From assembly GCA_022826645.1 (NCBI GenBank), contig JAJDUM010000033.1:1-64000 (forward strand): DNA of 64,000 bases. The letters run 5' to 3'. A program made the position numbers and the translations under genes. Below are positions 120-4,920 of the stretch, piece after piece. The notes under the pieces are model-generated. The model did not search any database and was not told where the DNA came from. It worked only from the letters and a program-made list of their open reading frames with translations. This stretch comes from Candidatus Poribacteria bacterium. GTDB taxonomy: Bacteria; Poribacteria; WGA-4E; PCPOR2b. Every line of letters starts with the position of its first letter. Within the stretch, counting starts at the first letter, position 1.

Positions 120-155
120 AACACTAGCAACTTGCGTTATACAAGGAGCCTCACA

Positions 156-1184
156 ATGTACAAAGAAAATGGGCAAGAGATTTTTGTTGTTGACGGACAT
201 ATGCACTTTTGGGATGCCAACCCGGACAACTGGCGCAATGAGTATGGCGAAGGCTGGATCCGATGTTTCTACGATTTTCATACCGCCCTCAGTCCGGAGG
301 AATATGTCTGGCCCTTTGAAAAGTATTGCAAATACGGTGAAGAAACGCTCATCAACGATCTCTTCGCGGAGGGATACGTCGACGTTGCCATCCTCAACTC
401 AACGTATCTTTACGAGTTCTATAAAAATGGATTTAACACCCACCAACAGAACAACGCGATCAAAGCAAAATACCCTGACCGCTTTATCCTCTGCGGTTCT
501 TTCGATCCGAGAGCGGAGGAGGCGGGACTGGATGCGTTTCGGCAGATGGTGGAGGATTACCCGGTTCAGGGGCTCAAGCTCTACACCGCCGAATGGCGGA
601 ACGGCTCGAAGGGCTGGCGGTTAAATGACCCGTGGGCTTACAAGTACTTTGAGCTCGCCGACGAACTTGGGGTCAAAAATATCCACGTCCACAAAGGACC
701 AACGGTTTATCCCCTCAATCGCGACGCCTTTGATGTCGCCGATGTGGATTATGCTGCGACCGATTTCCCCAATCTCAACTTTATCATTGAGCATATTGGA
801 CTGCCGCGATTAGACGACTTCTGCTGGATTGCCACACAGGAAAAGAACGTCTATGCCGGTATGTCGGTGGCGATGGCGTTCATCCATTCACGTCCAAAAT
901 ATTTCGCCGAGATAGTCGCCAACCTCCTGTTTTGGTTGGGTGAGGATAAGATGATCTTCGGTAGCGATTACGCCATCTGGACGCCCAAGTGGTTGATTGA
1001 GAAATTTATGGCGCTTGAGTTGCCGGACGATATTAAAGAGGAGTATGGGGTTGACATTACACCAGAAGCCAAGCGCAAGGTCTTAGGTGAAAACGCCGCC
1101 CGTCTGTATGGGATTGACCTTCCCACCCATCGGGAAAAACTGAGTCAGGATGAGATTGGTGTCAAACTTGCCGCGGGCGCGTAA
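156..1184 (+). CDS. amidohydrolase family protein (amidohydrolase-2 / TIM-barrel metal-dependent hydrolase)
   Basis: This 342-residue protein belongs to the amidohydrolase-2 type of metal-dependent TIM-barrel hydrolases and decarboxylases. The N-terminal metal motif DGHMHFW (HxH, residues 15-17) follows the first strand. Further family positions are IHVHKG (about residue 176), EHIGLPR (about 212) and FGSDYAIW (about 268, the conserved Asp). The ATG at 156 is preferred over an in-frame ATG at 132 because AAGGAG lies 6-10 nt upstream of it. Substrate is unknown; relatives act on aromatic acids, lactones or sugar-derived acids. It lies 60 nt upstream of the putative selenoprotein gene and may be co-transcribed, but nothing in the sequence ties it to selenium. 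Confidence 0.85.
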   Translation: MYKENGQEIFVVDGHMHFWDANPDNWRNEYGEGWIRCFYDFHTALSPEEYVWPFEKYCKYGEETLINDLFAEGYVDVAILNSTYLYEFYKNGFNTHQQNNAIKAKYPDRFILCGSFDPRAEEAGLDAFRQMVEDYPVQGLKLYTAEWRNGSKGWRLNDPWAYKYFELADELGVKNIHVHKGPTVYPLNRDAFDVADVDYAATDFPNLNFIIEHIGLPRLDDFCWIATQEKNVYAGMSVAMAFIHSRPKYFAEIVANLLFWLGEDKMIFGSDYAIWTPKWLIEKFMALELPDDIKEEYGVDITPEAKRKVLGENAARLYGIDLPTHREKLSQDEIGVKLAAGA

Positions 1185-1244: not shown

Positions 1245-2372
1245 ATGATCACGGCACATACAGACGTCGTTGGAAGTCTGCTTCGTCCGCCTGAACTTCT
1301 TGAGGCGAGAAGTGAAATGACCGCAGGCAAAATGACGCAAGCGGCATTCAAAACCGTCGAGGACCGAGCAGTTGACAACGCTATTGCACTGCAAGAAGCG
1401 GTAGGCTTGGAGGTGGTCACCGATGGCGAGATGCGCCGGTTATCCTTCCAGAGCCAGATGACAGAAGCGGTCGCCGGGTTCGGTGAATATGATCTCAACG
1501 CCTTCCTCTGGGGTGATTGGCGCGGCGATGAACGTGCAAAGGATTTGAGTATAGAACGCCCCAAGGGTTTGGGTGTTGTGGGCAAACTTAGTCGCAAACG
1601 CCATCTTTCGGTGGAGGAGTTCACCTACCTGCGAGCGCGGACGCGTCGCATACCGAAGATCACGTTGCCTAGTCCCAGCATGTGGACAAACTTCTGGTCG
1701 TCGGAGCACTCCGTGCCTGCGTATCCCACGCTCGACAGCTTTCTCGCGGATGTCGTTGATATTATGCGGGACGAGGTCGCTGAATTGGTTCGACTGGGCG
1801 CGACCTACATTCAGCTTGATGCCCCCCATTATCCGTTACTGCTTGACCCCCAAACTCGAACCTTCTACGAAGGGCAGGGTTGGGATCTTGATCGGTGGTT
1901 GGCTCGAGGCATTGAGATGGATAACGCTGTGATTGGGGATTTTCCGGAGGTTACTTTTGGCTTTCATCTCTGACGCGGCAATCAGGGCAGCCGGTGGTTG
2001 GTCGAAGGCGGGTACGATCTGATTGCTAAACCGATTTTTCAAGGCATCCGAGCCCAGCGGCTGCTGCTTGAATACGATGATGAACGCTCCGGTTCGTTTG
2101 AACCGTTGAAGACGATTCCCGATGACAAGATCGCTGTCTTAGGATTGGTCACGACGAAAACGCCGCGCCGAGAGACGGCGGATGGACTCGCTATGCGTAT
2201 CAACGAAGCCAGCCGATTTGTGCCGTTAGAACGGCTCGCCGTGAGTCCTCAGTGCGGTTTTTCAACTTCGGTCCTCGGCAACCGGATTACAGCGGAAGAT
2301 CAGCGGCGTAAGTTGTCGGTGGTTGTTGAGACAGCCAGAAGGGTGTGGGACTCAGTTACGGAAAACGGATGA
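1245..2372 (+). CDS. MetE-like (cobalamin-independent methionine synthase C-terminal fold) protein, putative selenoprotein with Sec at TGA 1971-1973
   Basis: The frame runs 375 codons from ATG 1245 to TGA 2370-2372 with one internal TGA at 1971-1973. Both sides match the UROD/MetE-like TIM barrel: the start reads TDVVGSLLRP, and the C-terminal part has the SPQCGF motif. The internal TGA (codon 243) falls inside GFHL-TGA-RGNQ, where relatives have HLCRGN, the HxC zinc-ligand motif. Remaining predicted ligands are His241, Glu276 and Cys337. From memory, E. coli MetE uses His641, Cys643, Glu665 and Cys726, and the Glu-to-Cys spacing of 61 is the same here. Reading TGA as selenocysteine gives an intact enzyme with a selenolate metal ligand. 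A SECIS-like hairpin lies 14-27 nt past the TGA, and a Sec-containing selD is 520 bp downstream. The protein lacks the N-terminal MetE half, so it is a MetE-like methyltransferase of unknown substrate. A nonsense mutation or sequencing error is the alternative. Confidence 0.75.
1988..2000 (+). promoter_or_regulatory. candidate bacterial SECIS hairpin (MetE-like gene)
   Basis: CAGCC pairs with GGTTG (one G-U pair) around a GGT loop at 1993-1995. The loop lies 20-22 nt past the TGA, within the usual window for bacterial SelB-binding elements, and starts with GG as in the E. coli fdhF loop. An alternative fold pairs CGGC 1976-1979 with GCCG 1990-1993. Short, and only judged by eye. Confidence 0.4.
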
Positions 2373-2463: not shown

Positions 2464-2670
2464 ATGGCACAAACCCCGAAAGACAATCAAATCCGAACTG
2501 AATCTATTGGGAAATGGACGGTTCGGATCCGGTCATATCAGCTCGGTGATGTATATATCTGTACTGTAGATAATGTAAGTCCTGGTGCCGTCATTGCCCG
2601 GTCTACCGCTGCAACCCGGGCAGATGCGGAAGCTGATGCATTGGCGCAGGCGAAAGCTGCTATGGCGTAA
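2464..2670 (+). CDS. small conserved-looking protein of unknown function, 68 aa
   Basis: A 68-residue protein with a strong Shine-Dalgarno (AAGGAGGAAGG just before ATG 2464). It has no signal peptide or membrane segment. The centre (GKWTVRIRSYQLGDVYICTV) looks like beta strands, and the C-terminus is alanine-rich and helical (ADAEADALAQAKAAMA). No family was recognised. It sits between two genes with in-frame TGA codons (the MetE-like gene and selD), so a link to selenium metabolism is possible from context only. A terminator-like hairpin follows 20 nt after the stop, so it may end the first transcript. Confidence 0.7.
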   Translation: MAQTPKDNQIRTESIGKWTVRIRSYQLGDVYICTVDNVSPGAVIARSTAATRADAEADALAQAKAAMA

Positions 2671-2894: not shown

Positions 2895-3956
2895 ATGAAC
2901 CTCAATAGGTTGTCACGAAAACATACCCTCACAAGCCTTGCAAAAACGTGCGGGTGAGCGGCGAAAGTCAGTCCAGTTGGGCTGGGAGAACTGCTTGCAA
3001 AACTGCCAAAAAAAAATGACCCGAATCTGCTCGTTGGATTTGAAACTAGCGATGATGCTGGAATCTACCGCCTCAACGACGAAATGGCACTGGTTACGAC
3101 CGCTGACTTTATCACGCCACCGGTAGATGACCCGTATCTGTTTGGTCAGATTGCCGCAGCCAATTCAATCAGCGATATTTATGCGATGGGCGGCAAGCCT
3201 GTAACCTGCCTGAATCTGGTGGGCTTTCCGGCGGATAAACTGGGCCCAGAAATCCTACACGGAATTGTCGAAGGCGCGTTGAGTAAAATCACCGAATCTG
3301 GCGCAGTTTTGGCGGGTGGGCACACGACCGATGATGAGGAACCGAAGTTTGGATTGTCGGTCACCGGGATTGTGCATCCGGAAAAATATTGGCGAAACGT
3401 CGGTGCAGAACCGGGGGATGCCCTCATCTTGACCAAACCGATTGGCAGCGGTGTCATTTTTAACGCCAATCTGAAAAGCTGGGTGTCAGACCAAGCGTTG
3501 GACGAATGTATAGGGGCGATCACGGCGCTCAACAAAGAGGCAGCAGCGGTTATGGCTGACTTTGACATCCATGCGGTAACGGACATCACCGGGTTCGGAT
3601 TGGGTGGACATGCCTTGGAAATGGCAGAAGGCTCAGGCGTGACCTTGGAGATTCGGACCGACGACGTGCCGATGATGAGCGAGGCGCTGGAGATGTACGA
3701 AAAAGGGATGCGGACAGGTGTCAACGCCGCCAATCGGGCGCTGATTGAAGATTCAACCCATTTTGAAAGATCACTTCCTGGGTGGCATGAGGAAATCTTT
3801 GTTGATCCGCAGACCAGTGGTGGACTCCTGATGTCTGTGCCCGCTGCTCAAAGCGAATCGTTATTAACGGCTTTACACAATAACGGTGTGGCAAAGGCGC
3901 AGATTGTCGGGGATGTGAAGTCCTTTGCTGAACCGAATCATCTTATTTTTGTGTAG
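2895..3956 (+). CDS. selD: selenide, water dikinase (selenophosphate synthetase), selenocysteine-containing
   Basis: SelD makes selenophosphate from selenide and ATP, the selenium donor for Sec-tRNA and for selenometabolites. The frame starts at ATG 2895 and contains one TGA at 2955-2957 (codon 21) inside KTCG-U-AAKVSP, the known active-site position that is Cys or Sec across the family. Downstream are the glycine-rich and Asp motifs (TSDDAGIY, TTADFITPPVDDP) and the C-terminal PQTSGGLL. With Sec the protein is 353 residues, normal for SelD. Starting at the later ATG 3084 would remove the active site, so the longer form is clearly right. A hairpin past the TGA fits a SECIS. senB follows by 16 nt, suggesting one transcript and a shared selenophosphate supply. 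Confidence 0.95.
2971..2988 (+). promoter_or_regulatory. candidate bacterial SECIS hairpin (selD)
   Basis: TCCAG pairs with CTGGG (outermost pair U-G) around a TTGGG loop at 2977-2981, with further T-A and C-G pairs possible across a small internal loop. The loop starts 20 nt past the TGA. The position and G-containing loop fit bacterial SECIS elements. Confidence 0.6.
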
Positions 3957-3972
3957 GCGTCAAGGAGAGGTG

Positions 3973-4920
3973 ATGAAGATCTGCTTAGTGACCCCCGCTC
4001 CAACATACTCCCGAAAGGGTAACCGTGTGACCGCCCTTCGGTGGGCTCGCATCTTACGAGAGTTGGATCACCGTGTCAGTATCGTGGAGGAGTATCAGGG
4101 GGAGCGATGCGATCTGATGGTCGCGCTCCATGCCCGTCGCAGCCACGCTTCTGTTGTGCGTTTCCGGGGCGAACATCCAGAGCTGCCGCTTATCCTTGCC
4201 TTGACCGGAACAGATCTCTACGGCGATATTCATACGGACGCGTCAGCCCAAGAATCTCTGGAGATGGCGGATCGTTTCATCCTGTTGCAACCCGCAGGCA
4301 TCCAAGAACTTGCTGAACATCTCCGTAACAAAGCGTGGGTGATTTATCAATCGGTGACAGCACCGCCGGGGAAGTTCTCGCCAAAAAAGAACATTTTCGA
4401 GTTGTGCGTGTTGGGACATCTGCGTTCCGTGAAGGATCCATTTCAAACCGCAATGGCAGTCCGGCAACTGCCCCCATCTTCCCGGATTCGGGTGGTGCAT
4501 GTTGGGGGAGCACTCACCAACGATATGAAAACAGCGGCAGATGCCGAAGCGTCCACCAATCCACGCTATCGTTGGTTAGGAGAGCTCCCGCGTTGGCGGG
4601 CACTCCGTGTCCTCGCACGGAGTCGGGTGCTCGTGCTAACCTCGCGGATGGAGGGGGGCGCGAATGCGGTTTCTGAAGCGATTGCGTGTTCTATCCCCGT
4701 CATTTCGTCGCGAATCTCTGGCTCGATCGGTCTCTTAGGAGAGGACTATCTGGGCTACTTTCCGGTGGGAGATACGCGGACACTGACGGATCTGCTGGTG
4801 CGTCTTGAGACGGATGCCGCATTTTATGAGGCACTCAAAACGTGGTGCGAACGACTAAAGCCTATCGTCGATCCTAACCGCGAATGTCAGAGTTGGAAAC
4901 AACTGCTGCAGGACTTATAG
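3973..4920 (+). CDS. senB: TIGR04348-type glycosyltransferase, selenosugar synthase SenB family
   Basis: A 315-residue GT-B-fold glycosyltransferase. The N-terminus SRKGNRVTALRWARILREL is the hallmark of the TIGR04348 family that is commonly encoded beside selD. Family members characterised as SenB attach selenium from selenophosphate to a UDP-sugar (UDP-GlcNAc), giving a selenosugar for selenoneine synthesis. The C-terminal half has the GT4-like donor-binding pattern SRMEGGANAVSEAIACSIPV. ATG 3973 is chosen because AGGAGAGG lies directly upstream and the protein then starts MKICLVTPAP. The gene is 16 nt behind selD, as expected for a selD-senB pair. No SenA-type (EgtB-like) selenoneine synthase is in this window, so the end product may be a selenosugar or be completed elsewhere. 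Confidence 0.85.
   Translation: MKICLVTPAPTYSRKGNRVTALRWARILRELDHRVSIVEEYQGERCDLMVALHARRSHASVVRFRGEHPELPLILALTGTDLYGDIHTDASAQESLEMADRFILLQPAGIQELAEHLRNKAWVIYQSVTAPPGKFSPKKNIFELCVLGHLRSVKDPFQTAMAVRQLPPSSRIRVVHVGGALTNDMKTAADAEASTNPRYRWLGELPRWRALRVLARSRVLVLTSRMEGGANAVSEAIACSIPVISSRISGSIGLLGEDYLGYFPVGDTRTLTDLLVRLETDAAFYEALKTWCERLKPIVDPNRECQSWKQLLQDL

Follow-up and report, generated by a model that had tools for sequence, protein, structure and literature searches.

A MetE-like gene with a predicted selenocysteine in a putative zinc site lies beside selenoneine genes in Poribacteria

Is the single in-frame TGA of a MetE-like gene in a Candidatus Poribacteria genome read as selenocysteine, and which reaction would such a protein serve? 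The gene lies on contig JAJDUM010000033.1 (assembly GCA_022826645.1), in the stretch of 64,000 nucleotides analysed here and called the window. It spans positions 1245-2372 of the plus strand and encodes 375 residues when read through one TGA. The translated protein matched the Pfam family PF01717 (Meth_synt_2) with an E-value of 9e-17 (61.8 bits, cut-off 21). The sole internal stop of the frame is the TGA at 1971-1973 (plus strand), codon 243, and the terminal stop is a TGA as well. A sequence-only reading of this DNA had placed the internal TGA exactly at the Cys of an HxC motif (HL-TGA-RGN), which was confirmed. It had also let the frame continue for 133 codons, and these were found to be 132 sense codons followed by the stop. 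Ordinary gene calling would be expected to cut selenocysteine (Sec) genes at the TGA.

Orthologues with 77-100% identity were found in 7 of 58 genomes, the window genome counted, six of them from the window genus and one from a different genus within this family. The same seven were recovered when 84 genomes of the phylum were searched. All seven orthologues, the window gene included, have the TGA at the same column and no frameshift. A frameshift artefact was rejected as an explanation. Pairwise dN/dS past the TGA was 0.04-0.18 in all 21 Poribacteria pairs, and ahead of the TGA it was 0.06-0.13 in the 16 pairs where it was computable. A scan of GTDB genomes yielded at least 504 relatives, of which the best 80 loci were used; three of these are Poribacteria genes already counted. 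Across the 82 distinct rows of the tree, drawn from the best 80 of at least 504 relatives and the Poribacteria orthologues, codon 243 is TGA in 19, distributed over seven phyla, and Cys in 63. Twelve distinct TGA genes of this set (best 80 of at least 504) belong to phyla other than Poribacteria: two Methylomirabilota (L045, L050), two Acidobacteriota (L049, L113), five deltaproteobacterial assemblies (L055, L059, L061, L062, L066; four placed in Myxococcota), and one each from Chloroflexota (L069), Planctomycetota (L075) and Tectimicrobiota (L078). Additional in-frame stops in L113, L064 and L089 are located at the natural gene end. Recoding of TGA as tryptophan was rejected, since the only TGA of each Sec gene before its natural end is the one at the Cys column. 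The alignment of homologues that the sequence-only reading had proposed as a check gave TGA without frameshift in close relatives and Cys in the remaining ones.

A maximum-likelihood tree places all of the 19 Sec genes, together with 34 Cys genes, in a single clade of 53 rows (support 100/100). The Sec/Cys label changes state seven times on this tree. At least five of these changes are forced by well-supported branches, which indicates that Sec and Cys were swapped repeatedly; the tree gives no order of the two states. Cys forms are encoded by named strains, namely Litchfieldella qijiaojingensis, Halomonas sp. LBP4 and Rubrobacter radiotolerans. On plasmid 2 of Rubrobacter radiotolerans, a Cys-form relative with 64% identity (L217, 5962-7107) lies about 4 kb from arsC, arsM and arsH.

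Bacterial SECIS elements are hairpins just downstream of the UGA with a G in the loop. A hairpin with a GGT loop 20 nt past the TGA had been noticed before. Indeed, the apical stem-loop of a SECIS-like element, CAGCC-GGT-GGTTG, is found at 1988-2000 on the plus strand, with the loop at 1993-1995; it begins 14 nt past the TGA, and 19 nt separate TGA and loop. Counted from the T of the TGA, the loop occupies positions 23-25 and is closed by the pairs 18-30 to 22-26. These five inner pairs are all present in 18 of the 19 Sec genes compared to 17 of 36 comparable Cys genes, these being the ones with an Arg and a Trp codon at the hairpin positions. The outermost pair, 18-30, is C-G, G-C, A-T or T-G in 18 of the 19 Sec genes, and L059 is the exception in both counts. 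The SRWL codons largely impose the four innermost pairs, which accordingly occur in most of the Cys genes as well. Every one of the 19 Sec genes has GGT or GTT in the loop, whereas 27 of 36 Cys genes have GCT. This difference arises from the codon of Arg250, which is CGG or CGT instead of CGC in all 19 Sec genes and in 8 of the 39 Cys genes with Arg at this position (p 2e-9, kinship ignored). The choice of this codon in Sec genes also deviates from the Arg codon usage of the same genes (p 5e-6; 13 genes, with one for Poribacteria). Single-sequence folding of the 54 nt past the TGA was equivocal: not all Sec genes have the SECIS stem as their minimum-energy structure, the window sequence folds otherwise, and the mean energy of the folded stretch differs little between Sec (-12.2) and Cys genes (-10.8). 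We therefore relied on the comparative counts. A search of the window with Rfam at gathering scores gave no match. By the comparative counts the Sec genes possess a hairpin with a loop G, the GGT/GTT loop being present throughout and accompanied by a Sec-specific codon choice.

A search for selB and tRNA-Sec had also been proposed, and both are present in the window genome. The tRNA-Sec (76.6 bits, above the cut-off, and likewise detected by ARAGORN) is located 57 nt after selB (368.8 bits). Among the other carriers, tRNA-Sec was detected in all Poribacteria genomes having the metE(Sec) gene and in 9 of 12 Sec genomes outside this phylum; selB scored above the cut-off in 16 of 19 Sec genomes. 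Two genomes (G103 and G104, with L061 and L062) contain the TGA gene and sen genes, yet neither tRNA-Sec nor selB above the cut-off, while G097 had no tRNA-Sec match and G092 no selB above the cut-off. These four are metagenome assemblies of unstated completeness and were counted against the Sec reading; the missing machinery of G103 and G104 reflects either incomplete assemblies or decay. We also considered whether the family goes with the use of Sec in general, as tRNA-Sec looked frequent in Cys genomes (25 of 38). This link was dropped because tRNA-Sec is about equally common in the outgroup (17 of 29) and in the Cys genomes of the clade (22 of 34). With tRNA-Sec beside selB, TGA in close relatives and Cys in other relatives, UGA-243 almost certainly encodes selenocysteine, as the sequence-only reading had suggested.

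To which protein family does this residue belong? A fold model of the window protein (56 aligned sequences) reached a mean pLDDT of 94.4. The top Foldseek matches to the model were 1YPX (E 4e-20), full-length MetE enzymes and the MesD structure 3RPD. In a profile alignment, His241, column 243, Glu276 and Cys337 correspond to the zinc-ligand motif of 3RPD and 1YPX. The three ligands predicted previously besides the TGA residue are thus retained at the same positions, and the assignment of the TGA residue to a zinc-ligand position is supported by the alignment to these MetE-family structures. The putative ligands His241, Glu276 and Cys337 are invariant in the rows covering them, and position 243 is Cys or Sec. 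Furthermore, Ser11, Glu62 and Asp192 align with the homocysteine-binding residues of MetE, at the positions named in the accessible text of PMC7857596. Ser11 is conserved in 86 of 87 rows (one gap) and Glu62 and Asp192 in 87 of 87, three duplicate rows included. The folate-binding N-terminal half is absent from the window protein, and none of the seven NCBIfam MetE models (PRK06520, PRK06233, TIGR01371 and others) matched it above the curated cut-off. By this model the product of the window gene is a selenoprotein with a core-MetE-type fold and belongs to the MetE (Meth_synt_2) superfamily. Sec243 would be a ligand of the catalytic zinc, and the protein is very likely a zinc methyl-transfer enzyme.

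The genes around metE(Sec) point to selenium metabolism. A gene for an Amidohydro_2 protein (132-1184, plus strand) ends 61 nt upstream; this neighbour is found in 5 of 7 Poribacteria loci within the available upstream DNA, which measured about 1.5 kb per locus and 1.2 kb in the window. Downstream, a small open frame of 68 amino acids without an NCBIfam match (2464-2670, plus strand) is followed by selD, encoding selenide, water dikinase with AIRS domains, the enzyme with the SenC role in selenoneine clusters (2895-3956, plus strand). A Sec-containing selD 0.5 kb downstream had been reported before. Its start lies 523 nt after the MetE-like gene, and it contains an in-frame TGA of its own at 2955-2957 (CG-U-AAKV), read as Sec. 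The next gene is senB for the selenosugar synthase of the pathway to selenoneine, a selenium antioxidant (3925-4920, plus strand; TIGR04348, 401.5 bits, cut-off 300), with the profile match beginning at about 3979. Two Sec genes and a selenosugar synthase gene thereby lie within 3.7 kb of the window. The sequence-only reading had named selD only; senB after selD, and senA and egtD as neighbours in relatives, are new. The genes metE(Sec), selD and senB are consecutive in all six genomes of the window genus, one senB being cut by a contig end, and senA and egtD are located elsewhere in the genome in all six. In G008, metE, senB and senA each lie on a separate contig. Three genomes of the same order that have no Sec gene (G007, G011 and G014) contain senA-selD-senB together.

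Related arrangements were found in other lineages. The three Poribacteria genes among the best 80 loci, already counted above (L039-L041), have selD and senB as neighbours, like the window. A planctomycete (L075) encodes senA-senB-metE(Sec)-egtD on a single strand, and two Methylomirabilota (L050 and L045) encode egtD-metE(Sec)-senA, where senA of L045 is a fragment only. Cys forms are linked in a similar manner: in a gammaproteobacterium (L089) a SelD fusion, SenB and SenA are neighbours, and in a gemmatimonadete (L052) EgtD is adjacent, with SelD and a SenA fragment some 4-6 kb further on. Direct adjacency of egtD to the MetE-like gene is seen in L045, L050, L052 and L075. Overall, SenA or SenB is encoded near the gene in the window and in 8 of the best 80 (of at least 504) loci, three of the eight being Poribacteria. 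Among the 12 Sec loci outside Poribacteria, three are linked. The sen/egt linkage spans five lineages, namely Poribacteria, Planctomycetota, Methylomirabilota, a gemmatimonadete and a gammaproteobacterium.

Other neighbours were seen in smaller groups of loci. A gene for a TauE/SafE-family exporter is convergent with the Sec gene and within 30 nt of it in L055 (4218-4961), L059 (3822-4574), L061 (2341-3093) and L062 (3039-3782), and in L066 an EamA transporter occupies the place of the TauE/SafE exporter of the other deltaproteobacterial loci. Histidine-ammonia-lyase-like genes scoring below the NCBIfam cut-offs lie beside Actinomycetota Cys forms (L063, 8513-9949; L070, 3682-5499), a possible hint at histidine-betaine catabolism.

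Co-occurrence was analysed at the level of genomes. Within the phylum, SenB was detected at E 1e-60 in 15 of 84 genomes (14 above the cut-off) and SenA in 17 of 84 (15 above the cut-off), and all seven Sec-MetE genomes encode both. Outside Poribacteria, SenB is present in 7 of 12 Sec genomes compared to 8 of 34 Cys genomes of the clade (Fisher p 0.04, kinship ignored), and SenA scores above the cut-off in 8 of 12 Sec genomes and 9 of 38 Cys genomes. SenB was missing from 5 of the 12 Sec genomes outside Poribacteria and SenA above the cut-off from 4. Tested along the tree, Sec state and SenB presence gave no signal of association, with five phylogenetically independent pairs only (median p 1). 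As Sec state and SenB are inseparable from kinship on the tree, physical linkage and not co-occurrence is the main argument. Because selD, senB, senA or egtD accompany the gene in five lineages, MetE(Sec) most likely acts in selenium small-molecule metabolism. A link to selenoneine appears quite probable from this gene order, and a Sec-MetE zinc enzyme serving selenium small-molecule metabolism is, as a whole, the explanation that we consider reasonably probable and the best one. The senB, senA and egtD neighbours strengthen the earlier guess that a selenium or thiol compound donates or accepts the methyl group.

How does this protein relate to described systems? Closest are the short PRK06520-/PRK06233-like MetE homologues (1YPX; NF005085, NF004875), which share its length, fold and the H-x-C-R-G-N, Glu and C-G-F motifs. 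Unlike these, the window protein has Sec for Cys and in some lineages sen/egt neighbours, and it stays below the curated cut-offs (237.6 of 313 and 225.2 of 576 bits). The group is presumably the one labelled YxjG/YxjH; our literature search returned no paper naming both YxjG and YxjH. Core-MetE and four families of folate-independent methionine synthases, MesA-MesD, have been described in the accessible parts of the two reports as enzymes in which homocysteine is methylated from non-folate donors (PMC7005905, PMC7857596). As in these enzymes, the window protein consists of the catalytic MetE half without the folate domain and has the four predicted zinc ligands and the homocysteine-binding residues, but it is distant in sequence (profile E 6e-24 to 3RPD, a MesD) and has Sec at HxC. 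The described selenoneine cluster encodes SenA, SenB and SenC (PMC10891094; pathway also in PMC9814287 and PMC10702425, all as far as their accessible text goes), and genes of this pathway neighbour the MetE-like gene in the five lineages. The words methyltransferase, methionine synthase and MetE are absent from the accessible text of PMC10891094. Selenoproteins annotated as methyltransferases, as here, comprise an arsenite methyltransferase and others in the available part of PMC13188914, but their domains differ (NF008823, PF13649 and others; UxxG or CxxU) and do not include PF01717. No MetE-type protein is listed in the available part of this 2026 inventory of 119 prokaryotic selenoprotein families and subfamilies (PMC13188914), and its table agrees with the earlier remark that no selenoprotein of the MetE family was known to be described. 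Likewise, none of the nine new deep-Sep families is of MetE type in the accessible text of PMC12013277, and a word search of the accessible text of PMC2398784, PMC9312934 and PMC5029168 did not return methionine synthase. In a literature search covering titles and the start of abstracts no MetE-type selenoprotein was named, and a description elsewhere is possible.

From these data the following mechanism can be proposed. UGA-243 is very probably decoded as Sec via the SECIS-like hairpin, SelB and tRNA-Sec. Judged from fold and alignment, His241, Sec243, Glu276 and Cys337 would form the catalytic zinc site, with a selenolate in place of one thiolate ligand as a consequence of Sec243. As in MetE and core-MetE, the role of the zinc would be to activate the nucleophile of methyl transfer, a thiolate or selenolate and most likely that of homocysteine. 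Since the folate domain is absent, the methyl donor should be something other than folate. With Sec, the zinc site would be more nucleophilic or a better match for a selenium substrate. Two directions of the reaction can be envisaged. The enzyme might demethylate a methylated selenium compound and in this way send selenium back into the SelD/SenB/SenA route. Alternatively, it might return methionine and feed the SAM-hungry EgtD step. EgtD consumes three SAM per hercynine. We prefer the demethylation, which we regard as possible at somewhat less than an even chance, to the return of methionine for EgtD, which is doubtful. In its most specific form, held only tentatively, the protein would be a dedicated zinc-selenolate methyltransferase that uses homocysteine as partner to methylate or demethylate selenoneine-type or other methylated selenium compounds. 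This would be an undescribed step closing a selenium-recycling loop around SelD-SenB-SenA.

The strongest competing explanation, although rather unlikely, is a folate-independent methionine synthase serving the whole cell, with a corrinoid or other donor, in which Sec would only tune the zinc site and the sen/egt linkage would reflect the SAM use of EgtD. Such a role would agree with the conserved homocysteine-binding residues and putative zinc ligands, with egtD directly adjacent in the four loci named above, and with the Cys form of Litchfieldella (L079), which lies beside metX on the opposite strand. Within the window genus MetH had no match at E 1e-100 in five of six genomes and a partial match only in the sixth, and the absence of a full MetH keeps this explanation in play there. 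However, MetH scored above the cut-off in all seven other Sec genomes examined (G008 of the phylum and, from outside it, G092, G101, G108, G117, G120 and G132), and MetE(Sec) is consequently not needed for methionine in those. Genome G000 encodes four further MetE-like paralogues (29-34% identity, no internal stops), and the genes that follow metE(Sec) in Poribacteria are selD and senB, with egtD elsewhere together with senA.

It is improbable that the sen/egt linkage is incidental and the role of the family selenium-independent, even though linkage is confined to a minority of loci. No SenA or SenB was found in the available flanks of 72 of the best 80 loci, many of these flanks being short, and few clusters of recurring neighbours were seen across the best 80 loci and the window. 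A scan of 61 of the 96 frames within 700 nt in clade loci, which left out most named sen/egt genes and some short frames, matched 49 Pfam families at E 1e-8, each of them in at most two of the 61 neighbour proteins. Against this, senA or senB lies within about 6 kb of the gene in five lineages, whereas by our estimate, from 12 kb in a genome of about 4 Mb, chance would account for far less than 1% per genome. Moreover, SenB is present in 15 of 46 clade genomes without Poribacteria compared to 1 of 29 outgroup genomes (p 0.003, kinship ignored).

Sec is a stronger nucleophile than Cys, which could favour a residue that is redox-active or accepts the methyl group itself instead of being a permanent zinc ligand, for example when a methyl or glycosyl group is cleaved from a selenium intermediate. 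According to the available part of the 2026 review (PMC13188914), many selenoproteins that await characterisation are similar to thiol oxidoreductases and likely function in redox reactions. We nevertheless consider this quite improbable here, as the column aligns with the HxC Cys of 1YPX and 3RPD and the other three ligands are invariant where covered. A decayed pseudogene with a real stop or a sequencing error at the TGA, for which the two genomes lacking detected tRNA-Sec and selB (G103, G104) might be cited, was rejected as extremely unlikely, given the identical TGA in 19 distinct genes of seven phyla, the absence of a further internal stop ahead of the natural gene end and the purifying selection past the TGA in Poribacteria.

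If the proposed assignment is true, MetE(Sec) would extend the selenoproteins by a family that differs from the usual thioredoxin-like redox enzymes, and Sec would occupy the metal site of an enzyme of methyl transfer. Both uses of selenophosphate in the window, Sec and selenosugar synthesis, would then be tied to one-carbon metabolism. Should the reading as a dedicated zinc-selenolate methyltransferase hold, it would be a natural selenoprotein with Sec as a catalytic zinc ligand. The Cys forms in named strains make the MetE-like family accessible, and MetE(Sec) is a testable candidate for a missing enzyme of selenoneine or methyl-selenium metabolism.
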